DNA of 61,141 nt from Rubripirellula sp. (GTDB lineage: Bacteria > Planctomycetota > Planctomycetia > Pirellulales > Pirellulaceae), in NCBI GenBank assembly GCA_012270065.1, contig JAAXJB010000059.1, forward strand, positions 1-61,141, given 5' to 3'. Both the position numbers and the translations under genes were made by a program. Numbering within the stretch: position 1 is the first letter of the stretch; the number at the start of each line of letters is the position of its first letter. Below are positions 6,780-48,816 of the stretch, piece after piece. The notes beneath the pieces are model-generated. The model did not search any database. It saw nothing but the letters and a program-made list of their open reading frames with translations, and was not told the DNA's origin.

Positions 6780-7083
6780 GAATTGATGTCGTTGGAGGTG
6801 TATTCTCTGGTTTCCGACCAGTTGGTTACCAGAGTCCCTGCAAGTTAACGAACAACAGTGTTTCGTATCAGGGTTCTTGTGGGTTTACCTGATGTCAGAT
6901 GTTCCAGTGCTGTTGTCTTCCCAGTCAAGCGGGGACTCCGTTCCATCGGACTCGATTTGATATGCAAGGCCGAGTTGGTAATGGAAATCGGACTTCCATG
7001 TTTTAACGTATCTCTGGGCGGTCGCGGACAATTGCTTCCCGCGCTATGATAGAAATTGTCAGTCAGCACCTTGAGGAAAAGTT
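6780..7083. other. Divergent intergenic region
   Basis: About 300 bases between the small membrane protein (minus) and the first purine nucleoside phosphorylase (plus). No credible coding frame. A -10-like box lies at its right end. Confidence 0.45.
7045..7050 (+). promoter_or_regulatory. Possible -10 box upstream of the PNP pair
   Basis: TATGAT matches the sigma-70 -10 consensus in five of six positions and would start transcription about 30 bases before the ATG at 7084. The region 17 bases upstream (TCGCGG) is a poor -35 box, so this is only a candidate. Confidence 0.25.
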
Positions 7084-7923
7084 ATGCTCGATCTTTACGA
7101 CAAGATTCAGGAAGCGTGTTCCAAAATCCGTCATGAATTCAGTGACAAGCCAAAGGTTGGTATCATTCTCGGTACCGGTCTCGGAGATATTGTCGAGGAA
7201 CTCGACGTCGAGGCCGCGATTGACTATCAGGACATTCCGCATTTTTTGACTTCGACGGCGACAAGCCATCGAGGGCGATTGGTATGCGGGCGTTTAGCCG
7301 GCGTACCCGTCGTGGCCATGGAGGGCCGCTTTCATCTTTACGAGGGTTATTCACTCAAAGATATCACGCTGCCCGTGCGAGTATTCAAGGAGCTTGGTGC
7401 AGAGTTGATGATCGTCAGCAATGCATGTGGTGGATTGAATCCCTACTTCGATGCCGGTGATCTCATGGTCATCGAAGATCAAATCAATCTGCTGGGTGAC
7501 AATCCGCTGATCGGCATCAATGATGACCGGTTGGGGCCCCGTTTTCCCGATATGTGTGAACCCTATGATCAGGCATGGATCGACCGTACTATCAAGATTG
7601 CTCGCGAGCGTGATATCAATATCCACAAAGGTGTCTTTGTCGCTGTTGCGGGGCCGAATCTGGAAACTCGTGCAGAGTACCGTTACCTGAGAATGATCGG
7701 TGCAGATGTCGTGGGAATGAGCACGGTGCCTGAAGCCATTGTCGCCGTCCATTGTGGTCTGAAAACGGTCGGTCTCAGTGTGGTCACTGACATGTGTCTG
7801 CCGGATGCGCTGAAGCCCGCCAATGTCGAGGAAATCATTGCCGTGGCGAATGAGGCGACTCCCAAACTGATTGCTGTGGTGGATGGGATCGTTCGGGAAT
7901 TCAATCACACCAGGATGGCTTGA
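7084..7923 (+). CDS. Purine nucleoside phosphorylase
   Basis: A 279-residue trimeric-type (PNP/MTAP family) phosphorylase that splits purine nucleosides with phosphate in the cytoplasm for purine salvage. Landmarks in order: VGIILGTGLGDIVEEL (phosphate-binding loop), TSTATSHRGRLVCG (the His and Arg of the phosphate site), VAMEGRFHLYEGY, VSNACGGLNPYFDAGDLMVIEDQINL, GPNLETRAEYR, then MSTVPEAIVAVHCGLKTVGLSVVTD with the conserved Met and Asn/Asp positions of the base pocket. The length is normal. AAAAGTT precedes the ATG; GAGG at 7074-7077 is a plausible Shine-Dalgarno. Six bases downstream begins a second PNP gene, so the two form an operon of tandem paralogues. Confidence 0.92.
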   Translation: MLDLYDKIQEACSKIRHEFSDKPKVGIILGTGLGDIVEELDVEAAIDYQDIPHFLTSTATSHRGRLVCGRLAGVPVVAMEGRFHLYEGYSLKDITLPVRVFKELGAELMIVSNACGGLNPYFDAGDLMVIEDQINLLGDNPLIGINDDRLGPRFPDMCEPYDQAWIDRTIKIARERDINIHKGVFVAVAGPNLETRAEYRYLRMIGADVVGMSTVPEAIVAVHCGLKTVGLSVVTDMCLPDALKPANVEEIIAVANEATPKLIAVVDGIVREFNHTRMA

Positions 7924-7929
7924 TCGCGA

Positions 7930-8910
7930 ATGGTCGAAACGCCACCGCCCACTGGTTGGGAAGATGATCATGAAGACCAACTGCTGCAACAGGCATGCAG
8001 TCATGTTGTTTCCCGGTGTAAGACGTTTCAGTTTGGAGATCGCCCTCTGGCAGCGGTCATTCTTGGCAGCGGCTTGGGGGGGCTCGCAAACCAGATTGTT
8101 GACCCTGTCGTGTTCTGTTACCGCGACATCCCTGGCTTTGGCACTTCGTCGGCGGGCGGGCACCGAGGTGAATTGATTCTGGGGAAGCTTGGAGATTCGC
8201 CGATCATTGCCATGGCAGGACGATTTCACCGCTACGAGGGTTGGACCAACCGGCAAGTGGCGTTTCCTGTCAGATTGATGGCTTGTCTGGGGGCTGATCG
8301 TTTGATCGTGAGCAATGCGGCTGGCGGTGTGAATCCAAAACTGGCAGTGGGAGACATCGTCGTCATCCGTGACCATCTGAATTTCATGGGCGCGGATTGT
8401 TCTGGACAAAGTTCCTATTCCCGCGATTCAGGGTCGCTTGTCAATCCGATTTTGAAGGAAGGTGCTCCACGAGATGGGATGGAGTCAGGTGCAGCGGGGA
8501 CGCGAATTGACGGCTCGGAATGTCCCGGTTTGCTTCGAGCTGGCGAGATTTATGACTCTGAGATGTCACGTGAAGCCGTGCGGATTGGTGTCCGCGGAGG
8601 ATTTAACGTTTATCCGGGGACTTACCTTGCGACACTGGGGCCTAACTACGAGACGCGGAGCGAGTATAGAATGATGAGGAAAATCGGTGCTGATGTGGCG
8701 GGCATGAGCACGGTTCCGGAGGTACTGGCGGCTTCTGCTGCCGGAATGCGGATTCTGGGACTTTCCATGGTGAGCAACGTTGCGAATCCCGATCAACCAA
8801 TCAAGGCAGATCATTCGGAGGTGCTGGAGGCAGGAGCGGCTGCGGCAGCCAAGCTGGAAAGCATTGTCCGAGGCGTGTTGAATCTGGTGCGACCGGGTCG
8901 TGAGTCATGA
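7930..8910 (+). CDS. Second purine nucleoside phosphorylase, with an insertion
   Basis: A 326-residue paralogue of the preceding gene. It keeps LAAVILGSGLGGLANQ, SAGGHRGELILG, MAGRFHRYEGW, VSNAAGGVNPKLAVGDIVVIRDHLNFMG, GPNYETRSEYRMM and MSTVPEVLAASAAGMRILGLSMVSNVAN. The last element has the Asn typical of purine-specific enzymes, while the first paralogue has Asp there (SVVTDM), which may mean different base preference. Between HLNFMG and the SREAVRIG region it carries a longer low-complexity stretch rich in Gly and Ser (roughly residues 155-205) than in the first copy, where the family has a substrate loop. No strong Shine-Dalgarno is seen, so translational coupling to the upstream gene is likely. 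Confidence 0.9.
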   Translation: MVETPPPTGWEDDHEDQLLQQACSHVVSRCKTFQFGDRPLAAVILGSGLGGLANQIVDPVVFCYRDIPGFGTSSAGGHRGELILGKLGDSPIIAMAGRFHRYEGWTNRQVAFPVRLMACLGADRLIVSNAAGGVNPKLAVGDIVVIRDHLNFMGADCSGQSSYSRDSGSLVNPILKEGAPRDGMESGAAGTRIDGSECPGLLRAGEIYDSEMSREAVRIGVRGGFNVYPGTYLATLGPNYETRSEYRMMRKIGADVAGMSTVPEVLAASAAGMRILGLSMVSNVANPDQPIKADHSEVLEAGAAAAAKLESIVRGVLNLVRPGRES

Positions 8911-9046
8911 TCGGTTTTGATGTCCGTTCTCCGGAATGATCTTTCATCACACTGTTCGAAACGCTTACGTTTTTTTCAGTTATCTCGTAAATTCGTCCCC
9001 ACGGCTGCTGGCCGATGGCCAGAGGTAAATTGTTCCAGAGCCTAAC

Positions 9047-9805
9047 ATGAGCACAAACCGAAATGTCAGACCGATTGTGAACGAGGGTCAGCCGCAGTTC
9101 CACGCTGGCGCATTGTCACTGGACTTGGGCCCTCAAGAAATCCATCGGGCAATTCATGCAATACCGGTTGGTGGCGACGACGAGCAGTTGACTGAGATTG
9201 CGATCTCAGGGTCGGCTGGTCAGGATGGTGTCTTGATGCGTCTGAACCATCCGATTCGCATCACCATGGAAGGCCCTCTGGGTGACTATGCTTTTGCGTA
9301 TAACGCCGAAAGTGATATTCGTATGACCGGCGATGTTGGCAGTGGTGTGGCGGAGGGAATGGTGAGCGGGGCGGTTCGTGTGAGAGGTAACGCAGGTGTT
9401 GGCGCCGGTACAGGCATGACAGGAGGAACGCTTGCCATTTATGGCGATGCAGGAAACCGCTGTGGGGCTGCCATGCGTGGTGGAGGTATTTTTGTACGCG
9501 GCAATGTTGGCGATGAGGTTGGGGTGGGGGCACTTGGCGGCATGATTGTGATCGGCGGCGATGCAGGTCACAATCTCGGTGATCCGACGAGCAGCGCAAC
9601 CGTCTTCATCCGCGGTGCCGCTGCAAGCCTTGCCGATGGCGTTACCGATGCTCCACTGCGTAAACGTGAACAGCTGCGACTTGGATTGTTGCTCATCAAT
9701 GCATCCATCAGGGGTGATGCAAAAGAGTTTCGCCGCGTTGTGCCGGTAGCAATGCTGGAGGCCGAAGCAAGCGAGCGTGGGGAATTGAATCCGAACTGGC
9801 GATAA
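9047..9805 (+). CDS. GXGXG-domain protein (glutamate synthase alpha C-terminal/MgsB/GlxC-like)
   Basis: A 252-residue protein built on the right-handed beta helix of the GltB C-terminal domain. The repeated turns are plain from about residue 95 to 195: MTGDVGSGVAEGMVSGAVRVRG, AGVGAGTGMTGGTLAIYG, AGNRCGAAMRGGGIFVRG, VGDEVGVGALGGMIVIGG and AGHNLGDPTSSATVFIRG. Stand-alone GXGXG proteins occur as the B subunit of N-methylglutamate synthase (MgsB), as GlxC and as FwdC/FhcC of formylmethanofuran enzymes. The next gene has a glutamate-synthase-like barrel, which favours the Mgs/Glx type. No glutamine amidotransferase subunit (MgsA/GlxB) is seen nearby. Confidence 0.75.
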   Translation: MSTNRNVRPIVNEGQPQFHAGALSLDLGPQEIHRAIHAIPVGGDDEQLTEIAISGSAGQDGVLMRLNHPIRITMEGPLGDYAFAYNAESDIRMTGDVGSGVAEGMVSGAVRVRGNAGVGAGTGMTGGTLAIYGDAGNRCGAAMRGGGIFVRGNVGDEVGVGALGGMIVIGGDAGHNLGDPTSSATVFIRGAAASLADGVTDAPLRKREQLRLGLLLINASIRGDAKEFRRVVPVAMLEAEASERGELNPNWR

Positions 9806-9864
9806 CCGCTTCGAGAACTTCCATCCAATCGTGGAGAGTGTTGGTCGCTATTGGAAAACAAGCA

Positions 9865-10998
9865 ATGAATGAACGTCTGGAAAAAATCTGCTTCTTGCCA
9901 CCCGTTTCGGATACGCCCTGGGTGGGTGCGCCATCAGATGATTGTTCCATCAGTCTGGAAAGGCTGGATGCAAAGAAGGTGTCGTTACCCCTTCCACTGT
10001 TCTGGTATGACCCGCCATGGGCTGAAATCGAAATGAATACAGCTGATTCGATTGCTGCCGCTGTGGCCCGCTTGGGAGTGACTGTCAGTGCACTGCGAAG
10101 AGATCTGGTTGTTGTGGATGAGGAATCCGAATTGCATTTGGCTGTTTCGGATGAAAACGCAGATGAAGGTGCAGAGGAAACGGACCGAGAAGCTTCTTAC
10201 CTGCCACGGATGTTGCCATATCGGCCGGAACGTTATGGGGTCAGTGACCGGGACTTCGATGGGGCAGCGGTTGTTGACGTGAGGCTTGCCATGCGGCGCG
10301 ATCCAGACGGCCGTTTCGCTTTCACTCCTGACGAAATCACACGCTGGGTGGCAACTCAGGATCAGACGTCGATTTCCGGTGGCAGTTGGGTTCCGGCTGC
10401 TTCATTCCCTCCTGATGTGGACGGAATGGAAAAACTTGGTGGAAAAATCCGGCAATTGCGAATGTTGGCTCCGGACGCCGTCGTATTGGTCTCGATCTCG
10501 CCCCATCGTCTGGTCGATGAGTTGCACGAGGTACTGAAGAGTCAGCCAGATGGCATCATTCTGAGACTGAACGAACTGGACCTCGATCCACTTGACCTTG
10601 CCCGGTTTGTCCAGAAGACGCGGGGAATGATGGATGATCTGGCGTATGGTCACTTGCCTTTATGGATTGTTCCGGGAGAAATTTCGGCTGATGACGCTGT
10701 TAAATTGATCCAGCTGGGTGCCAATGCCGTGGCGGTCGATTCCTGGTGTCGGGAACTTGTGGATGAAATCCGGGACGCTCAGCAGAATGCCAGCGCAGGT
10801 TCCGGATACTCTTCATATTCAAGTTCCAGTGTTCAAACCTGGATTGACTGGGTTGAATACGAACTCGGGAGCCACGTCGAACGATTTGATGGCCTGATGC
10901 ATTCTGTCAGTTATCAGTCGCCAGGTCAGAGATTGGCGACTCTTTCTGACAAGTGGGCAGAATCGTTATCTATCCCAAAATTGAATCTTCCGTTTTGA
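9865..10998 (+). CDS. Divergent glutamate-synthase-like (FMN barrel) protein
   Basis: A 377-residue protein. The start is uncertain: ATG 9865 is chosen, with GTG 9838 as alternative. The C-terminal half resembles the FMN-binding barrel of GltB/MgsC: KIRQLRMLAPDAVVLVSISP, PDGIILRLNELDLDPLDL, then LPLWIVPGEISADDAVKLIQLGANAVAVDSW, which corresponds to the strand-turn-helix that holds the FMN phosphate in the family. However, the Gly-rich GEGG motif and the cysteine cluster for the 3Fe-4S centre are not seen, and an acidic insertion (about residues 85-115) sits in the N-terminal half. It follows the GXGXG gene by about 60 bases. It may be a structural or altered-function partner of that subunit. 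Confidence 0.55.
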   Translation: MNERLEKICFLPPVSDTPWVGAPSDDCSISLERLDAKKVSLPLPLFWYDPPWAEIEMNTADSIAAAVARLGVTVSALRRDLVVVDEESELHLAVSDENADEGAEETDREASYLPRMLPYRPERYGVSDRDFDGAAVVDVRLAMRRDPDGRFAFTPDEITRWVATQDQTSISGGSWVPAASFPPDVDGMEKLGGKIRQLRMLAPDAVVLVSISPHRLVDELHEVLKSQPDGIILRLNELDLDPLDLARFVQKTRGMMDDLAYGHLPLWIVPGEISADDAVKLIQLGANAVAVDSWCRELVDEIRDAQQNASAGSGYSSYSSSSVQTWIDWVEYELGSHVERFDGLMHSVSYQSPGQRLATLSDKWAESLSIPKLNLPF

Positions 10999-38169: not shown

Positions 38170-39081
38170 CTAGCCTTGTACCCGGTTTGGAGCCTGTGCC
38201 TGCTGCGGAGCAGTTGGCTGTTGCTGGTTGGGTGGAGCCGGTTGTTGACCAAGCCGTGAACGGATGATCTTCCAGTTTTTGGGTGGCGCATTGGGAATGA
38301 AGTTCCCGAGAAATTTCTGCTGGAAACTGGCAGCAACCGCGTTTCGTTTGATTTCCTTGAATTCGTAATGATCCCATTTGGGAGCATTCTGGGGATGGTA
38401 GTTGGGGGCATACATCAGTAAAGCATGTGGCTGATACGTGGCTTTTTCCAATGCGATTTGTACCAGCTTGTATTGGGCTCTGAGTTCCTGCAGCTTTGGC
38501 CACGCTTCAACGACAATGATGTTGGGATCATTCGAAGCGACTTGACGTACCCAGTAGCGTTCCTGGATTTGTTGGGCATTGAGATTGAAAACGAATGGCA
38601 AAGGTCCGTTGACAATGTTCTTTCCCCGCATGTTCTCGGGAAGCTCTTGTATTGTGCACTCCTGTTTGCTCCGATCAAACGCGATCAACTGCGTTCCGTT
38701 GCATATCCAGTATTCCCCGTATTGATTCGTTTGAGGTTTGAAAATCGGTTGTCCCTGGGGGTCGAGACCGCCAAAAAATACCAACTGGTCTGTTTTGAAT
38801 AAGCCTTTGTCGGGTGACGCATATTTGATGATGCCCGCGGCTTTGGATGCGGGAACGTTCGTTGGTGCTGCAAAATTATCGTAGCTCCAACGATTGAACT
38901 GGCATTCCAGCGTTTTCATGGATTGGCTCTGTTGTTCCCATCTTTTGAGCACCTGCTGCAGCTGTGCTTTGGCCTCAGGAGACAAGGCGGGGAAGGGTTG
39001 TTGGCCAAGCTGATTCTGTTGTGCTGATCCAGCAAGTGAACCAAGAATAACGAGCCATGAGGCAAGAGCGAGTCGCATCAT
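38170..39081 (-). CDS. TIGR03009-type secreted planctomycete protein
   Basis: A 303-residue protein with signal peptide (LALASWLVILGSLAGSA, then QQN). It continues with ALSPEAKAQLQQVLKRWEQQSQSMKTLECQFNRW in two parts, a LolA-like start, and the body AAGIIKYASPDKGLFKTDQLV, WICNGTQLIAFDRSKQECTIQELP and GPLPFVFNLNAQQIQERYWVR. The end is Pro/Gln/Ala-rich. The curved-sheet pattern resembles LolA/LolB lipoprotein carriers, so it may bind a lipid or lipoprotein in the periplasm. The family is typical of planctomycetes; its function is not known. Confidence 0.85.
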   Translation of the reverse strand: MMRLALASWLVILGSLAGSAQQNQLGQQPFPALSPEAKAQLQQVLKRWEQQSQSMKTLECQFNRWSYDNFAAPTNVPASKAAGIIKYASPDKGLFKTDQLVFFGGLDPQGQPIFKPQTNQYGEYWICNGTQLIAFDRSKQECTIQELPENMRGKNIVNGPLPFVFNLNAQQIQERYWVRQVASNDPNIIVVEAWPKLQELRAQYKLVQIALEKATYQPHALLMYAPNYHPQNAPKWDHYEFKEIKRNAVAASFQQKFLGNFIPNAPPKNWKIIRSRLGQQPAPPNQQQPTAPQQAQAPNRVQG

Positions 39082-40557: not shown

Positions 40558-43500
40558 GTGATTTGGAAGGCGAAACGAAACCGGAATCGTGGTCGGGCCC
40601 GGAGTACGGAGGTACTGAAACGGCGATCCCGCGGGCCTGAACATCTGGAGCCGCGTCGATTACTCGCTGCTGACCCTCTTCATGTCGGCATTGTCTATCT
40701 GGAAACGGATTATCTTGAAACCGACCAGGACGTTGGAAGCGATTCCAAAGGTGATCGCTTCATCCTTTCTTTCAATGGTGGAGTTGCAAACACCACCCTG
40801 ACGGAATTGCGTATCCGTACAGACAAAGATGGTGATGGTATTAGCGTCGGTGATCCCATTTATGACACCGTCGTCGGGGGGCGTGGCAAGAGTGGGGCTC
40901 ACGACTTCGAAATCGTCCGTGTTCTGACTCAGGATGGCCGGCAAGTCAATGCGACTGCCACCATTGAAGATGGTGGGCAGGAATTGGTTTTGCACCTGTC
41001 CGATTTTCGAGCCGGTGATCGTCTTGAATTCACGGTTGATGTCGATGAGGTTCTGAGAAATGCAGCTGATTTGGCTTTATTCAACGATCGTTTGGATGTC
41101 ATCACGTCCGGTCAGGAGTTTCAGGATTCGATTCTCGGTGTGACTTTTGAGGCACCACACTACGAAACCAGCCAAGCTGATGCGATCTTCGTCAACGATT
41201 ACGGTGATCCAGTTTCCGCGTATGGTTTGAATCTGCCACCCGATGAGGGTAACGATGTTGATAGTCGCCCCGACCGCTCTGCCGCAGCCATCCTGAGTCT
41301 GATTCAAACCCCCAAGCCGATCGAGATATCAGGGCACGTTTGGCTTGATAACAACATTGATGCAACGCGGGAGCCCGGTGAACCCGGACTGCAGGGGGTT
41401 GAGATCGCTCTTTTCCGTCAGTCGGAGGCAGGCGACTACATCGATACCGGTCACCGCGCGACTACCAATGCCGATGGGAAATACCATTTTCCGAAGTCGC
41501 TCGGGATTCCGCCGGGACATTACCGGCTGGTCGAATCGCAACCGCCTGAACTGATAAGCGTTGCTGCCCTGCCTGGTACCGTCAATGGAGATGTTGTCGG
41601 CGTGATTGGTTCGGTCGATGTGATTTCGGACATTGCCATGCCGCTTGGAGATTCGGTTGCCGAGAACTACGACTTTGCAGAGGCGGAACAGGCCTCGGTT
41701 TCCGGATTTGTCTATCTCGACTCTGACAACGATGGAATCCGGGACACGGGAGAAGAAGGCATACCCGATCTGCGTATCCAACTGGTTCCAGTCGACACGA
41801 TGGCGGCTCAGGCAGTCCTGATGACGACCACCTCGGCTGATGGTTCCTATTCGTTTTCCGGTTTATCGCCCGGAACCTATGATCTGCTCGAGCTTGATCA
41901 GCCTGAGCATCTGCTGGATGGAACTGATACGCCAGGAAAGATCGATGGAGTTCAGGTAGGTGATGCAGAGAACCCCGGAGACCGGATTACATCTGTATTT
42001 CTCCAAGGTGGTGATGCCGGTATCGAATACAACTTCGGGGAAATACCTGCTGGTTCCTTGACCGGCCAGGTCTATCTGGCGAGCGCTGGTCATGATTGTC
42101 ATGAACCTCAGGCCATTGTTGCATCGACCCCTCTTGCTGGAGTTGAAATCGCTCTTCAGGACAGTCGTGGTGCTTTGGTGGCACAAACCAGCACCAAGGC
42201 CGACGGCAGTTATGCGTTCCACGGAGTGCCGGTGGGCAACTACCGACTTGTCCAATTCACTCCTCCCGGAGTTCTGGATGGCCAAGCTCATGCGGGAACC
42301 ATCAATGGTGTGCCAGTCGGTGTGAGCCTTGGCGGCACTTTGATTCACGACATTACCATGGTCACGGGTGGCGTCGGAACAGACTACGATTTTTGCGAGG
42401 CCTTGCCAGCTTCGATCAGTGGCTATGTTTATCATGATGAATCCAACGACGGGATTCGTGATCTGCAAGAACAGCCAATCCCAGGCGTTGCTGTACACCT
42501 CTTCAATGAGCAGGGTAACACGGTTGCATCGGTCGATACTGACAGTCAGGGTCGGTACGAATTTGTTGGACTCAATCCGGGTGTGTACTCTGTCGTGGCT
42601 GAACAGCCTGTGGGGTATTCGGATGGAATTGACAGTATTGGCACGGTGCAGGGAAACCCAGTCGGCAACAATCCTGTCAATGACCAACTCGCTGGCGTTC
42701 ATGTCAAGCAAGGGCAGGTGGCTGTTGATTACAACTTTGGGGAGGTTCTTCCCGCATCGCTTGCGGGTCGCGTGCACGTTGATCTTGACGGGGATTGCCT
42801 TTACGACCCGAGTGAACCAGTGTTGTCAGGAGTAATGGTTCGGCTCTTTGATCACATGGGTGCTGAGGTCGATCAGGTGTTGACCGACCTGAATGGGCGG
42901 TATGCATTTGTTGATATTCCGCCCGGTGAGTACACCGTGATTGAGGAGCAACCGGACGGCTATTTTGATGGTGGTGCTTCCGTTGGTACACATGGTGGCA
43001 ACGTGCTGGATGCAAACCGTATTGGTGGAGTCGTTTTGACATCAGGGCAAAATGCCGCTTCCTATGATTTTTGTGAGTTGCCGGGTGCCGAACTCACGGG
43101 GCATGTTTTTGCTGACCTGAATGACAACTGTGAATTTGACGACAGCGAAATGGGAATTGTTGGAGTTGCCATTGAGTTGCAGGATGAGACCGGTTCGGTG
43201 ATCGCGAGCACAATGACAGACGCCAACGGTTACTATTCATTTTCTGGACTGGCCGCAGGTATTTATTCTGTCAGTGAAATTCAGCCCGAAGGCTGGTTGC
43301 AGGGGAATCAGCGGGCTGGCAGTGCCGGTGGGGATACCAGTCGCGATGATTTGATTTCCCATGTTCCGGTGGCGTGGGGTGACCGACTCACAGATTATGA
43401 CTTCTGCGAATTGATGCCTGCTTCTGTGCAGGGGATGGTTTGGGAAGACGTCAACACAGATCAGCGATATGAACCAGGTGAGGTTCCGATTCCTGGTGTG

Positions 43501-45390
43501 TTGATCGAATTGCTCGGGCCGTCGGACGATGTATTGGCAACAACCCAAACCGATTCACAGGGCACGTACCGGTTTGATAATTTGATGCCGGGAGTCTACT
43601 CGCTTCGCCAGATTCAACCGACAGGTTTTTTCCATGGTGGGCAACTTGCAGGGGATCACGGCGGCGATGCTTCGGTCGATGATCTGTTGGGAGGTTTGAC
43701 ATTGGCAGTTGGCTCCGAGGCCATCCAATATGACTTTCCGGAAGTTCCTCCTGCATCGCTTAGCGGTTTTGTGTTTCAGGATGGCGCAGCCATACGCCTT
43801 GGCTCGATCCTGCGACCGGAGTCACTGCGTGAATACAGCGACGGTGTCCTGACCAGCGATGATACCCGTCTGGAGGGTGTCACGATCGAATTGCGGGATG
43901 CCTTGGGGGTCCCGGTCGATTCGGATGATTTCCTGCCAGAGTCTCGTCGTGAGAATCCATTCGTTACATCGACCAATGCTGCCGGGTACTACGAGTTTGC
44001 TGGTCTGCGTCCCGGCATCTATCACGTGTATCAGCGACAGCCGGAAGGATTTGTGGATGGAATTGATACGGCAGGAAGTTCAGGGGGACTGGCCATCAAT
44101 TTAGCGGACCCGCGTTCGGAGCATCTTGATGATTTGATTGCGATGTTGTCAAACGACCGAAACGCTGACCCCGGAACAGACGCAATTCTGGAGATTGCGT
44201 TGAGCGGTGGCGAACAGGGTGAATGGAACAACTTCAGCGAAGTTCGTGTGAATCAGGTGGAGTTCCCACAGCAGCCGCGAGAGACTGTCGTGCGTGAACC
44301 ACAGGTTGTTGCTCCGATTGAAACCTTCGAATCAGCCATTCGTATTGCTACGTTCGCGGATCCTGTGACGGCTGCTGCTCCCGTTCGCATGTATGATGAT
44401 TGGGCAGTATCGTGGCACCTCAGTGTGATCAACGGTGGTTTTCCACGTGGTGAGAAAGTGGAAGATGGGATCTTTCGTGGCGTTGCTTCGCGAATGCGAA
44501 GCGAGGCCTGGGTGGCAGGTGTCCACGCGGCGGGACGCTGGACTGTGCATGGAATCGATGGCCTGCAGGATGCTGATTCCGTTCATCCATCCGAATTTGA
44601 TCTCGGTGAGGAACAGGCAATTGCACTGTCGGGAGATTTTGATGGGGATGGCTCTGACGAACCGGTCATCTATGTTGCCGGGCAGTGGTTCGTCGATCTC
44701 AATGGCAATGGTTTTTGGGATCCCGGTGATTTGTGGATTGAATTGGGGACCGCGCTTGACCGGCCTGTGGTTGGTGACTGGGATGGTGATGGCAAGGATG
44801 ATGTGGGGATTTTCGGTCGTCAGTGGCAGCGTGATCCACAGCGAATCAAACGGGATTTAGGGCTGAGCGATCCCGCGAATAAAAGACGGCGTCTGGCAAT
44901 GCGAACGGACACTGCGAATGCTGATCCCGTTGCTGATGAAACCGATCCACGCCGCTTCCTGCAACGCGGTGATAGTGGAGATTTAAGAGCTGATGTGGTG
45001 GATCACGTGTTCAAATATGGTGAGCAGGTTGATACACCCATGGTGGGTGATTGGAACGGCGATGGGATCGACCAGATTGCTGTTTTCCGCGAAGGGAAGT
45101 GGCTGTTGGACTCAGATGGGGATGGTCGTTGGACTGATCAGGATCAGCGGGCTGATTACGGTCAGCCGGGGGATCAACCCATTGTGGGAGATTTCAACGG
45201 TGATGAGATCGATGAAATCGGCGTCGTTCGCGGTGATGTCTGGATCATCGACACTGATGGTGATCAACGCATCACGGGTAACGATCAGCAGATTGTGATC
45301 CCGAGACCTTCGGAGGATAGTCAGCCCGTGGTGGGCGACTTTGATGGCGATGGTCTTGATGAACCCGGATATTACGACGAGGCGGCGTGA
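40558..45390 (+). CDS. Giant SdrD B-like repeat surface protein with LEPR motif
   Basis: A 1610-residue protein starting at GTG 40558 after GGAGG. A very basic N-terminus leads into EHLEPRRLLAADPL, the planctomycete LEPR-type motif seen at the start of many giant secreted proteins instead of a classic signal. Residues about 255-1225 hold eight SdrD B/Cna-B-like units of about 115 residues, each opening like SGFVYLDSDNDGIRDTGEEGIP and closing in YDFCE- or YNFGE-like strands. From about residue 1355 the end has FG-GAP/VCBS-type calcium loops (GDFDGDGSDEPVIY, GDWDGDGKDDVGIFG, GDWNGDGIDQIAVF, GDFNGDEIDEIGVV, GDFDGDGLDEPGYY). It is probably an extracellular stalk or adhesin. Confidence 0.9.
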   Translation: MIWKAKRNRNRGRARSTEVLKRRSRGPEHLEPRRLLAADPLHVGIVYLETDYLETDQDVGSDSKGDRFILSFNGGVANTTLTELRIRTDKDGDGISVGDPIYDTVVGGRGKSGAHDFEIVRVLTQDGRQVNATATIEDGGQELVLHLSDFRAGDRLEFTVDVDEVLRNAADLALFNDRLDVITSGQEFQDSILGVTFEAPHYETSQADAIFVNDYGDPVSAYGLNLPPDEGNDVDSRPDRSAAAILSLIQTPKPIEISGHVWLDNNIDATREPGEPGLQGVEIALFRQSEAGDYIDTGHRATTNADGKYHFPKSLGIPPGHYRLVESQPPELISVAALPGTVNGDVVGVIGSVDVISDIAMPLGDSVAENYDFAEAEQASVSGFVYLDSDNDGIRDTGEEGIPDLRIQLVPVDTMAAQAVLMTTTSADGSYSFSGLSPGTYDLLELDQPEHLLDGTDTPGKIDGVQVGDAENPGDRITSVFLQGGDAGIEYNFGEIPAGSLTGQVYLASAGHDCHEPQAIVASTPLAGVEIALQDSRGALVAQTSTKADGSYAFHGVPVGNYRLVQFTPPGVLDGQAHAGTINGVPVGVSLGGTLIHDITMVTGGVGTDYDFCEALPASISGYVYHDESNDGIRDLQEQPIPGVAVHLFNEQGNTVASVDTDSQGRYEFVGLNPGVYSVVAEQPVGYSDGIDSIGTVQGNPVGNNPVNDQLAGVHVKQGQVAVDYNFGEVLPASLAGRVHVDLDGDCLYDPSEPVLSGVMVRLFDHMGAEVDQVLTDLNGRYAFVDIPPGEYTVIEEQPDGYFDGGASVGTHGGNVLDANRIGGVVLTSGQNAASYDFCELPGAELTGHVFADLNDNCEFDDSEMGIVGVAIELQDETGSVIASTMTDANGYYSFSGLAAGIYSVSEIQPEGWLQGNQRAGSAGGDTSRDDLISHVPVAWGDRLTDYDFCELMPASVQGMVWEDVNTDQRYEPGEVPIPGVLIELLGPSDDVLATTQTDSQGTYRFDNLMPGVYSLRQIQPTGFFHGGQLAGDHGGDASVDDLLGGLTLAVGSEAIQYDFPEVPPASLSGFVFQDGAAIRLGSILRPESLREYSDGVLTSDDTRLEGVTIELRDALGVPVDSDDFLPESRRENPFVTSTNAAGYYEFAGLRPGIYHVYQRQPEGFVDGIDTAGSSGGLAINLADPRSEHLDDLIAMLSNDRNADPGTDAILEIALSGGEQGEWNNFSEVRVNQVEFPQQPRETVVREPQVVAPIETFESAIRIATFADPVTAAAPVRMYDDWAVSWHLSVINGGFPRGEKVEDGIFRGVASRMRSEAWVAGVHAAGRWTVHGIDGLQDADSVHPSEFDLGEEQAIALSGDFDGDGSDEPVIYVAGQWFVDLNGNGFWDPGDLWIELGTALDRPVVGDWDGDGKDDVGIFGRQWQRDPQRIKRDLGLSDPANKRRRLAMRTDTANADPVADETDPRRFLQRGDSGDLRADVVDHVFKYGEQVDTPMVGDWNGDGIDQIAVFREGKWLLDSDGDGRWTDQDQRADYGQPGDQPIVGDFNGDEIDEIGVVRGDVWIIDTDGDQRITGNDQQIVIPRPSEDSQPVVGDFDGDGLDEPGYYDEAA

Positions 45391-45490: not shown

Positions 45491-46825
45491 TCACTTGCCA
45501 GAGAATGCCCGTTTGAGTTCTTCGAGGCTTGTCAATCCGCGGGCGACCGTCAAAACCGCTTCTGACTGAATGCCGCGGTGTCCCTCAGCTTTTGCGATCT
45601 GGCTCAGCTGATTAACGTCCTGTGTTTTCATCAGTGCAGCCTGCAGTTGTTCGCCAGGGCACAGCAGTTCGAAGATGGCAATCCGGCCAATGTAGCCGCG
45701 TCCGTTGCACGCAGGACAAGGTGGGATTGGAGCAGGTCGACCATTTTCATCAACTTGTTGCTCAATCGGTGGTGGTACGAATGGCTGGTAGAGCATGGCG
45801 ACCCTTCCCGCAGGAATGCCGAGTTGCTTCAATAACTGAGGCTGTGGTTCAAAGCCCACTTTGCATTGATCGCAAAGGCGGCGAACCAGTTTTTGGCAGA
45901 GTACCGCGCTGATACGCTTCACCAGTGCCCCAGCGGAGTCTCGGTACTTTGGAAGCATCTGCACCAATGCTCCAATGGCACTGTCAGCCACCATGCGTGT
46001 GTACACCTGCTTTTGATTTTTCTCGACCTGTTCGATGGCGAGTTCCATGGAATCGGGCTGTGGCAACTCTGGAAAGAGGATGACATCCGGCTCCTTCAGG
46101 ATCGCCTTGCGGAGGAGTTCGGACTCGGTCAAACCGGTTTCCCCGCCAAAATAATTCGGGTTGATGTTAATGGTTTCAGGTTCGGGATTTTCCTCATCTT
46201 CGAAAGACTGAAAGTCACGGATGAAGCGATCAGCTGCGTCGATTGTGACTGCCCACGTGGTGGTCAGTCCCGTAGCCTTGGGAGCAGTGACAACGACAAC
46301 TGTGCCATCGGAATTGAGCTGTTCCTTCAGGCTTTCAATCATCTTGTCACGCATGCCGAGGTCACTCAGCTTTTTGAACGGAACTTCAACGGGTTCCAGC
46401 TTGATGAGTACGCGTTCACCGGAGGCTACACCCTGAGCCTGCACGGTAAGTACGTGTTTCACCTTGCCCGCCTTGATGGTGCATTTTCCTGTCTGAGCCG
46501 AGCGTCGATCGGCCGGGTTCAGCAGGCACAACTGTTTCAGGGCATAAAGCATTGCATCGCCTACTTCCCGGTCCATCGGAGGAAGCTGTTCCCATGCACC
46601 GTCAATCTGGTACCGCATCGCGCACGCACTTTGGGAATAGTCCATCAACAGATGGGTTGCTCGAGACATCAGGGCATGGCCCAATTGACCACCAGCAACC
46701 TCATATCCCGCGCCCTGACGAGTCGAAATCAGCAACGCTTGAGCTTCCGTTCGCTCATCGATGTGGGGCACGAATTCGACAGGAGCTGCTGTTTGCCACA
46801 GTTGTGGTTCTTCTTGTTCGGCCAT
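45491..46825 (-). CDS. GspE/PilB-like protein with lost ATPase motifs (pseudo-ATPase)
   Basis: A 444-residue homologue of type II secretion/type IV pilus assembly ATPases. The fold and order are kept: an N2-type domain (LMDYSQSACAMRYQIDGAWEQLP), the ATP loop region, and the zinc tetracysteine pair C318/C321 (LCDQCKVG) and C370/C373 (CPACNGRGYIGRIAIFELL). But Walker A, normally GPTGSGKTTT, reads APKATGLTTT (residues 181-190) with Leu187 for the essential Lys; the Walker B region reads EPDVILFPELPQ (245-256) with Pro252 for Gly and without the Arg of GEIRD; and the His box is gone (KNQKQVYTRMVADSA). It probably cannot hydrolyse ATP. It follows the intact PilT-like gene by 249 bases on the same strand. 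Confidence 0.85.
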   Translation of the reverse strand: MAEQEEPQLWQTAAPVEFVPHIDERTEAQALLISTRQGAGYEVAGGQLGHALMSRATHLLMDYSQSACAMRYQIDGAWEQLPPMDREVGDAMLYALKQLCLLNPADRRSAQTGKCTIKAGKVKHVLTVQAQGVASGERVLIKLEPVEVPFKKLSDLGMRDKMIESLKEQLNSDGTVVVVTAPKATGLTTTWAVTIDAADRFIRDFQSFEDEENPEPETININPNYFGGETGLTESELLRKAILKEPDVILFPELPQPDSMELAIEQVEKNQKQVYTRMVADSAIGALVQMLPKYRDSAGALVKRISAVLCQKLVRRLCDQCKVGFEPQPQLLKQLGIPAGRVAMLYQPFVPPPIEQQVDENGRPAPIPPCPACNGRGYIGRIAIFELLCPGEQLQAALMKTQDVNQLSQIAKAEGHRGIQSEAVLTVARGLTSLEELKRAFSGK

Positions 46826-47074
46826 CGTCTCGCGTATGCCTTTTTTCGAATGAGTCAGAAAACCGGTCGGTCCAAGAATTATGAGGCGACACGCCGGGAT
46901 TTACGAGTGGTGCTGCTGAGACATGGTCTGATTGGGTTCAGAAGCGTTCCAGATGCGGGAAAGTAGTGGTCGACAGAGAAATACTCAGATGGAGAGGGTT
47001 GCGGGGTGTGAGTCCGGTGGTATCGACCACTACGCAGCACGCAGCCCAAATTCTGAAATTCCAAATCCTCTGTT
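46826..47074. other. Intergenic region between the two motor ATPase genes
   Basis: About 250 bases between the PilT-like gene and the GspE-like gene, both on the minus strand. No credible gene. Its length suggests that the pseudo-ATPase may have its own promoter. Confidence 0.35.
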
Positions 47075-48280
47075 CTACAGAATACCCGGTGCTTTGACGT
47101 CGATCCCCTTGAGAGCCATTTTCAGTGCATCCTTGTTGGGTGCAACGGCGAAGGCCGTGGGGCGATCAATCAGCTCATCGTCGATCAATCCCTTCAGACT
47201 CATCGTGAAGTCCTGCATGCCGTCTTCTTCACCAATGCGGATTGCATCAGGTAGCTTGTGGTCATCGCCCTCAAGTACCAGTTTGCGGATCATTGGTGAG
47301 AAAGTCATGACTTCACACGTTGGTACCCGTGGCACATCGGGGCGAATTGTCTTCAGCAATTTCTGGGCCACGATTCCTTTCATGTTGAATGCTATCGCGG
47401 AGCGAATGGCACCGTGCATTTCCTCGGGAAACAGATCCAGAATACGGCCGATCGTGGTTGATGCACTGGAGGCGTGAATCGTTCCAAACACAAGGTGCCC
47501 GGTCTCCGCAGCATGAATGGCCGTCATGAAAGTTTCTTCGTCGCGAAGTTCGCCAACAAGGATGATGTCAGGGTCCTCACGCACCGCGTGCTTCATTCCA
47601 ATTTCGAAGTCCTTCACGTCCTGCCCAACCTCTCGCTGATTAATCAGGCACTTGTCTTCGGTGAAGATGAACTCGATGGGATCCTCGAGCGTCAGAATGT
47701 GTTTGCGATAGATGCTGTTGATGTAATTCAGCATTGAACCGATGGTGGTACTTTTGCCCGATCCTGTGACACCTGCCAGCAGAATCATTCCCTGATCAAA
47801 GTGGCAAAGCCCTTCGATTGAGTCGGGAAGAAACAGGCCACGGAAGTCAGGAATGAAGTTGCTGATCCGTCTGGCAACCAGTCCAATGTTACCCAGCGAC
47901 TTGAGCATGTTGACCCTGAAACGCCACCGCGTTCCATCGACGTCAATCGTGTGCGAGAAGTCGGCACCGCCTTCTTCCTCAAAAATCAGCAGGTTCCTTT
48001 CATCCATCATGGGCAGCAACAACCGCACCATCTCTTCGCTGTCGATCGGTGGACGATTCAATGCCTTCAGTTCGCCGCGGGTTCGCACCATTGGGGGTTG
48101 GCCGACTTTCATATGAAGGTCAGAGCCTTCCAGTTTGACCAGGGCACGGAAGATCTTATCGACCTCCAATTCCTCGTGGCTTTGCAGAAGGCTCTCGCGA
48201 AGGCGTGCAGCAACCGCATCGGCGGTGGTTCCCATTTTTGGGGCCGCGGGGGCGCGATTCCCAGATTTTGACGAAGACAT
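47075..48280 (-). CDS. PilT/PilU-like twitching motility ATPase
   Basis: A 401-residue hexameric secretion-type ATPase. ATG 48280 (MSSSKSGNRAP) is preferred; the frame is open to 48346. After a 45-residue linker the PilT PAS-like start appears as LEGSDLHMKVGQPPMVRTRGEL. Motifs are intact: Walker A GVTGSGKSTT with Lys176, HILTLEDPIEFIF (Asp box), EDPDIILVGELRDEET (Walker B with Arg), and ETGHLVFGTIHASSASTTIGRILDLFP (His box). It likely retracts a type IV pilus or powers a related pseudopilus. The second gene of the pair is a GspE homologue lacking these residues. Confidence 0.92.
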   Translation of the reverse strand: MSSSKSGNRAPAAPKMGTTADAVAARLRESLLQSHEELEVDKIFRALVKLEGSDLHMKVGQPPMVRTRGELKALNRPPIDSEEMVRLLLPMMDERNLLIFEEEGGADFSHTIDVDGTRWRFRVNMLKSLGNIGLVARRISNFIPDFRGLFLPDSIEGLCHFDQGMILLAGVTGSGKSTTIGSMLNYINSIYRKHILTLEDPIEFIFTEDKCLINQREVGQDVKDFEIGMKHAVREDPDIILVGELRDEETFMTAIHAAETGHLVFGTIHASSASTTIGRILDLFPEEMHGAIRSAIAFNMKGIVAQKLLKTIRPDVPRVPTCEVMTFSPMIRKLVLEGDDHKLPDAIRIGEEDGMQDFTMSLKGLIDDELIDRPTAFAVAPNKDALKMALKGIDVKAPGIL

Positions 48281-48816
48281 GGTTGAAAACTTGATGGTAG
48301 CGAATAGGGGTAGTTTGCGAGCCTCTCGCTGAGAGACCGCCCGCACTGCTGGCTCGATCCGAATGATTCTATGCAGAAGCCGGTGCTCGCCAACAGCAAA
48401 GTCCAGAATCGTCAGCGAGCCAGTTCAGTAGCAGATCTTTGATAGCAACAGTTTAACCTCCGATTATCGGAGCTGTTCGCTGATTCCGCACAACAGACCC
48501 ACCTTCTTGTCCCGCCAAGACCGATTTTACGCTTTGAAACTCGTTGAAAATCGACGTCCCACGAACCCTCCCTGAACTGGAATCATCACACGGAGATCGG
48601 TTCAGGTGTCTTGGGAATCAACCAAATCGAGAAAAACAAAGCTTCTCTGGACGTATTTCAGCGTTTTTTGCTATTCCGTCAGGTTACCGGGGAAGATGCT
48701 GAGCTTGTCCGCAGCATGCCCCAACTTCGTTCATTTATTTTCCTTGCCCGCGCTGCAGCCGATTTTTTTGCTCTGCGAGTTACCGGGCTTGGCAAGGTCT
48801 TTGGGATGACGTTTCG
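48281..48816. other. Divergent intergenic region
   Basis: About 530 bases between the PilT-like gene and a glycosyltransferase. A possible 69-residue frame lies at 48611-48820; otherwise I see nothing. Confidence 0.4.

Follow-up and report, generated by a model that had tools for sequence, protein, structure and literature searches.

We propose, with a probability of about 0.6, that the gene psE encodes a conserved non-catalytic protein of the PilB/GspE family, a structural ring or adaptor that works with the PilT-like motor encoded beside it. At the level of sequence it is established that ATP chemistry is lost, that the fold is kept together with the zinc site and the inter-chain Arg, that the gene is under purifying selection and paired with PilT, and that many relatives have a fused membrane domain with a CvpA-like membrane gene downstream. 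The gene lies in a window of 61,141 nucleotides, the whole stretch of DNA that was analysed (Table 1). Residues 48–439 of psE matched the T2SSE profile (PF00437) with 123.2 bits against a cut-off of 24.9. The protein scored below the NCBIfam equivalog cut-offs for GspE (125.5 versus 630.25), PilB (110.5 versus 675.65) and TfpB (104.4 versus 850), and the intact PilB/GspE paralogues of the same genome likewise fell under these cut-offs, some of them narrowly. The AlphaFold model of psE had a pLDDT of 93.3 and a pTM of 0.87, and its top Foldseek matches were PilF, PilB and GspE (E-values down to 2.8e-32, target TM-score up to 0.87); model and search thus agree with the preliminary description that the fold is kept.

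Table 1. Features of psE and its partner gene, in window coordinates
Feature	Position	Strand	Evidence or state
psE, dead PilB/GspE paralogue, 444 aa, ATG start	45491..46825	-	ORF, PF00437, residue mapping, model, Foldseek
PilT-like ATPase, partner gene directly upstream of psE	47075..48346	-	TIGR01420, intact motifs
Walker A position, residues 180-190 TAPKATGLTTT	46256..46288	-	Lys -> Leu187
ASP-box region, residues 208-216	46178..46204	-	Mg-binding Glu E357 -> Asn213
Walker B position, residues 245-259 EPDVILFPELPQPDS	46049..46093	-	Gly G394 -> Pro252, Arg R397 -> Pro255
HIS-box position, residues 269-283	45977..46021	-	both His gone: H413 -> Lys272, H420 -> Val279
Arg315, PilB/GspE-clade inter-chain Arg R455	45881..45883	-	kept
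First zinc Cys pair, C318-x2-C321	45863..45874	-	kept
Second zinc Cys pair, C370-x2-C373	45707..45718	-	kept

Functional residues were placed on psE via the numbering of Geobacter metallireducens PilB, whose functional residues, including R455, were taken from the available part of PMC5424180; as a control of the numbering, the ten functional residues named for Geobacter PilB landed on the expected letters. Of the active PilB/GspE ATPase set (Walker A Lys, Walker B, ASP-box Glu, two Arg fingers and HIS box), nothing is left in psE save the Walker B Glu, with E253 kept at the catalytic position. Both trans-acting Arg fingers are gone (R271 to T127, R286 to K142), a loss on which the preliminary description was silent, and PilB T327 and T411 map to K183 and N270. 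That description had stated that the Walker A Lys is replaced by Leu and that the Walker B Gly/Arg and the HIS box are lost, and alignment and mapping show it to be right on each of these motifs; an offset reading of the motif was ruled out by three separate alignments. All four zinc cysteines that it had called intact (C318, C321, C370 and C373) are present, and psE therefore carries both the PilB-clade tetracysteine zinc site and the inter-chain Arg by which membership in PilB/GspE was judged. The protein resembles the PilB/GspE extension ATPases (T. thermophilus PilF, 5oiu; G. metallireducens PilB, 5tsg/5tsh; V. cholerae GspE) in fold, tetracysteine, inter-chain Arg and C-terminal region, but differs from them in that the Walker Lys, the Arg fingers, the ASP-box Glu and the HIS box are missing.

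The mapping was extended to dead rows, 71 of Pirellulales type and 11 of other kinds, with 27 intact rows for comparison; rows containing X were left out, as were three intact but divergent paralogues (L005, L006, L076). A column survey gave the same broad split, with ATP-chemistry residues lost and many structural residues kept. The inter-chain Arg (R455 equivalent) was kept in 71/71 Pirellulales-type rows and in all 11 other dead rows. Among the 71, the Walker B Glu position held Glu in 38 and Asp in 23, and Arg was retained at the finger positions in a minority (12/71 and 17/71). In the closest clade, the altered P-loop carries a new invariant motif of its own. These residues bear on the idea that psE is a ligand-gated switch, binding a nucleotide or another anion through the displaced basic residues K183 and K272. 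The H413 position was Lys or Arg in 63 of the 71 rows, G186 was invariant in 49 rows, and the altered loop is conserved in the closest clade, all of which would suit such a switch; we consider it improbable, however, given that the Walker Lys and the ASP-box Glu have been lost, as for the most part have the Arg fingers, that the K183 position was Lys in only 24/71 rows, and that the 11 other dead rows were more variable at the K183/K272-type places.

To follow these losses among relatives, planctomycete homologues were searched in 60 genomes, from genus to order, and matches were found in all 60. A Lys-less copy was present in 59 of them, comprising 61 copies with Leu (55), Met (3), Tyr (2) or Phe (1) at the site; in the 60th genome (G008) only 115 bases of a 4064-base contig follow the stop of the PilT gene, so that the place of psE is unassembled. 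Named relatives with psE loci include Rhodopirellula, Rubripirellula, Stieleria, Roseiconus and Neorhodopirellula; at the 45 named-relative loci, which overlap the 60-genome sample in part, the site was readable in 44 and held Leu in 39, Val in 5 and Lys in none. No internal stop was present in any psE match listed from the 60-genome search. The dN/dS of psE was 0.046–0.060 in four unsaturated pairs, compared with 0.019–0.039 for PilT in the same pairs, and was 0.039–0.069 where defined in pairs with the window psE, which are near or at saturation. Judged by these ratios, psE is under purifying selection. A decaying pseudogene or a lone mutant might be imagined from the missing catalytic residues, but dN/dS of ∼0.05, the same losses in 59/60 genomes, the lack of internal stops in the listed matches and the new invariant P-loop motif in the closest clade rule this out for practical purposes. 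Thus the changes are conserved and, as the preliminary description held, the frame is not a random wreck.

Directly upstream of psE, the partner gene scored 367.9 against TIGR01420 (PilT/PilU family; cut-off 319.1) and, as read from its sequence, has its Walker A, Walker B and HIS box all intact, so that the intact PilT-like motor reported next to psE was correctly recognized. Of the 60 genomes sampled, 57 could be judged for the pairing, and in 54 of these PilT was the immediate upstream neighbour, on the same strand (50 by the pairing rule, plus the window itself and G004, G016 and G019, the last three through identical contigs matched by length); G015 and G038 end at contig edges and were left out of the 57. 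G027 and G044 carry the PilT orthologue elsewhere in the genome, unpaired with psE, and a close PilT orthologue was not found in G057, though psE is kept there; therefore psE is not strictly tied to PilT. At the named-relative loci PilT was directly upstream in 40/45; four of the remaining loci start at a contig edge, and the fifth, the cut-short L202, has PilT 641 bases upstream. The stop-to-stop frames of PilT and psE are often overlapping or 4-bp-spaced. Over all loci, 161 PilT–PilB pairs were collected, a number that takes in dead and intact PilBs and duplicate fetches, and 154 of the PilTs had all three motifs; four of the remaining seven are cut frames of <230 residues. Moreover, the PilT tree follows lineages, and in G170, G306, G237 and G322 no PilT of the genome matches the window PilT better than the one adjoining the dead PilB.

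Beyond the order, the survey used a 294-genome sample, with homologue sampling in Planctomycetota only. The Walker Lys was absent in 70/70 phylum loci (Val in 20, Arg in 17, Leu in 15, Thr in 13, Gly in 2, and Met, Ala or Gln in the rest), a figure that describes chosen matches: of the loci (L205–L274), 30 were returned by the search and 40 were picked as dead-like from the same match list, skipping f21/f22, f45 and f82 matches already seen intact and leaving out 15 further dead-like matches. PilT was next door at 41/41 of the chosen loci outside family f21, 40 of them by the pairing rule and one (L262) with frames that overlap more than the rule allows. For the f21 dead copies, PilT was found in 0/29 fetched stretches, which reach at least ∼1.3 kb to each side. 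The f21 dead PilB is a second, stand-alone copy, seen among metabolic genes in L157, L152 and L154, and most listed f21 genomes have an intact cassette-type PilB besides it. In f21 and f22 together, intact cassette-type PilBs were found at 15 loci; PilT was near them in 5/15 short stretches (L126, L129, L130, L133, L138), and in G299 PilT lies ∼10 kb from the intact cassette-type PilB. Lineages f45 and f82 have an intact PilB adjoining PilT. In f23, f44, f52, f53 and f35 no match was found at E-values of the dead kind in the 294-genome sample, as judged by E-value. Among plasmid records, 568 had a match, all at <60% identity, and the best eight of the 568 were at 24–27%.

The exceptions to the pairing raise the alternative that psE serves mainly in signalling or scaffolding independent of PilT, and that the pairing is inherited gene order. 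G057, with psE and no close PilT, and the f21 dead copies apart from PilT agree with this alternative, and Myxococcus PilB is reported, in the accessible portion of PMC11656802, to signal independently of pilus assembly; still, the pairing persists in the majority of the order's sampled families and in further lineages of the phylum, with frames often overlapping or 4-bp-spaced, and we regard a mainly PilT-independent role as unlikely.

The origin of the dead forms was addressed with a 93-row tree from which the active-site columns were removed, and which left out 20 loci (18 mostly near-copies, plus L068 and L073 with broken or unread bases). All 67 dead rows fell on one side of a 100/98 branch, and a topology that joins the dead rows of Pirellulales to the intact rows of f21/f22 was not rejected on this set (p-AU 0.147). 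In a 39-row full-length tree the dead clade had support of 96/93 and the alternative a p-AU of 0.049. A single dead clade is thus favoured by the trees, with borderline tests, and an old duplication in which f21 kept both copies fits it; independent losses of catalysis are possible, and so is long-branch attraction, because the dead rows are long-branched.

Many relatives outside the window's clade have at least 100 further residues N-terminal to the PilB core and, unlike the PilB/GspE extension ATPases, an N-terminal membrane domain. At least one hydrophobic 19-residue segment was present in the extension of 82/87 dead and 22/23 intact long frames, and 96/98 short frames (duplicates included) had none in the whole protein. 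The N-termini of many long forms appear signal-peptide-like by eye. The AlphaFold model of one long form, L100 (pLDDT 88, pTM 0.70), has a helix at 2–23, followed by helices 53–80, 84–104 and 108–133 and then the PilB core, and its positions W66, D76, W87, Y126 and N131 are 90–100% conserved in 39 dead and intact forms. No Pfam match over cut-off was obtained for the membrane domain in the ten long or intact forms scanned. The fusions were found in dead and intact PilBs alike (L043–L100, L143–L158, L235–L274), and one genome of the order, G043, has intact membrane-type PilBs plus a dead PilB (L072, L074, L075). In GspE–GspL and PilB–PilM, a partner anchors a PilB-family motor to the inner membrane; in the long relatives, by comparison, the anchor is within the PilB polypeptide itself, and a CvpA-like gene adjoins.

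The order in many relatives is PilT, membrane PilB, then a CvpA-like membrane gene. This third gene scored 19–47 bits against PF02674 (CvpA / Colicin_V), with 8/13 representatives over the cut-off of 29.3 and five below, and its versions in other phylum lineages are longer. A CvpA-like gene came next downstream of 75/82 long dead forms and 15/23 intact long forms, and was absent after 75/79 short dead forms. Counted instead by matched stretch, it occurred with 69/78 TM-bearing forms and was absent with 79/83 others; such counts vary with the counting rule, and several of the exceptions are due to contig edges or to stop-to-stop frames with too early a start (e.g. L096, L200, L201). Genome-wide protein searches in the family left 11/11 short-form genomes without a match to the membrane domain or the cassette CvpA, and both were present in 2/2 long-form genomes, which supplied the queries. 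Likewise, a cassette-type CvpA was not found by protein search in the window's genome, which has two other PF02674 matches; the window's clade has neither membrane domain nor cassette CvpA gene, only the soluble dead core. With relatedness allowed for, few independent events were available and the sign test gave a median p of 0.125, which is at most suggestive of the membrane domain and CvpA going together across lineages. This test left out L050 and L055, where the CvpA-like gene is on the opposite strand, adjoining the dead PilB at 7174–7599 and 7057–7539, respectively. L044 (G033) has two tandem dead PilBs after one PilT (7621–8937 and 9046–10869), one long with membrane segments and one short, with the CvpA-like gene following the short one; the upstream copy was scored with CvpA on account of the gene that follows the array.

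In the window itself, the neighbourhood holds several further frames. A gene for a 1610-aa protein with eight SdrD B-like stretches (40558–45390, + strand) is convergent with psE, and a 366-aa frame antisense to psE (45866–46966, + strand) is probably a shadow frame. A TIGR03009 (plancto_dom_2) gene lies directly downstream of psE in G010 and G007 (L090 8502–9464; L091 8627–9808); that of the window (38170–39081, − strand) is ∼6.4 kb from psE, with two opposite-strand genes between. Of the cluster genes that would mark a type IV pilus or T2SS machine (platform, pilin, secretin), the search covered the platform gene GspF, which gave no match on the window stretch, its matches being on other contigs or at C53:102–104 kb. 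GspF/PilC-like genes of the window's own genome, at G000:C107:63105–64058 and C73:77252–77596, are on contigs with no T2SSE match and are possible orphan platforms.

The genome that contains the window has 12 T2SSE matches, and the search for another GspE with intact motifs did find PilB/GspE genes with intact Walker motifs elsewhere in it. The preliminary description had suggested a non-catalytic subunit or regulator, possibly in a mixed hexamer, or an adaptor with a possible link to DUF1559 pseudopilins. The non-catalytic nature of psE and its selective maintenance beside an intact PilT are borne out by the sequence comparisons, and the mixed hexamer is made less likely by the loss of Arg fingers. 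For a mixed hexamer with the active motor this follows because these Arg are lent to the neighbour's ATP site, and because PilT and PilU form separate homohexamers, as given in the available text of PMC6821130. A mixed hexamer with the intact PilB/GspE of the genome, in which psE would be a regulatory subunit poisoning or tuning some ATP sites, could draw on the retained R315 and fold and on those intact paralogues; yet both trans Arg fingers are lost in psE and in most dead rows, so that the neighbouring ATP site would break too, the gene neighbour is PilT and not PilB, and the separate PilT and PilU homohexamers again count against it, leaving this arrangement with little probability.

In the structural ring or adaptor that we prefer, psE subunits would assemble, probably as a hexamer of their own, and this hexamer may be held in the nucleotide-free (open-apo) interface, the one that R455 contacts in PilB; homohexamer formation is what we infer here from one conserved Arg. 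According to the accessible part of PMC6821130, PilT rings with a Walker A made dead in the laboratory still support PilU-driven retraction, and the combination of dead ring and live partner is therefore workable. The psE/PilT pair is like PilT–PilU in its two adjacent ATPase-family genes, a likeness that consists in the gene pairing, and in that system a ring without its own ATPase can work given an active partner. However, the second ring of PilT–PilU is PilT-like with an intact Walker Lys, whereas the dead member of the psE pair resembles PilB, and what it lacks was lost in nature and is fixed. The membrane domain and CvpA-like neighbour in relatives point to a membrane-anchored adaptor: the ancestral form would sit in the inner membrane with CvpA and would give the PilT ring a fixed docking partner, much as a Walker-dead PilT ring can serve PilU in Vibrio, and the window's clade would have shed the membrane part and CvpA and kept a soluble adaptor core for PilT. 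More tentatively, a PilT motor, a PilB-fold protein anchored in the inner membrane through N-terminal helices of its own and a CvpA-like membrane protein in place of the GspF/PilC platform might together constitute an undescribed planctomycete machine. Its PilB part would have become a nucleotide-free ring in two large lineages, one motor (PilT) powering a stator-like dead ring, and the soluble dead ring would be what is left in the window's clade after the membrane parts were shed; we hold this wider reading to be possible, though we would not yet bet on it.

No description of a conserved dead PilB or of a PilT–PilB–CvpA cassette was found in the literature matches listed, as judged by titles and abstract starts in a library short on subscription journals, and matches for CvpA together with PilT were Pectobacterium genome papers only; the cassette may be undescribed. 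In the textbook view, the motors of pili and secretion systems are cytosolic hexamers driven by ATP. A catalytically dead PilB that persists throughout the order and in further phylum lineages, and that has membrane-anchored and intact relatives, is a natural test of the non-ATP roles of the ring, such as docking, templating and clamping. The psE system also lets one ask if a filament, or some different process at the membrane, can be driven by a single motor whose partner is dead. Moreover, because they carry the T2SSE profile, psE-type genes are likely annotated as ordinary GspE/PilB, and planctomycete pilus systems may therefore be misread.
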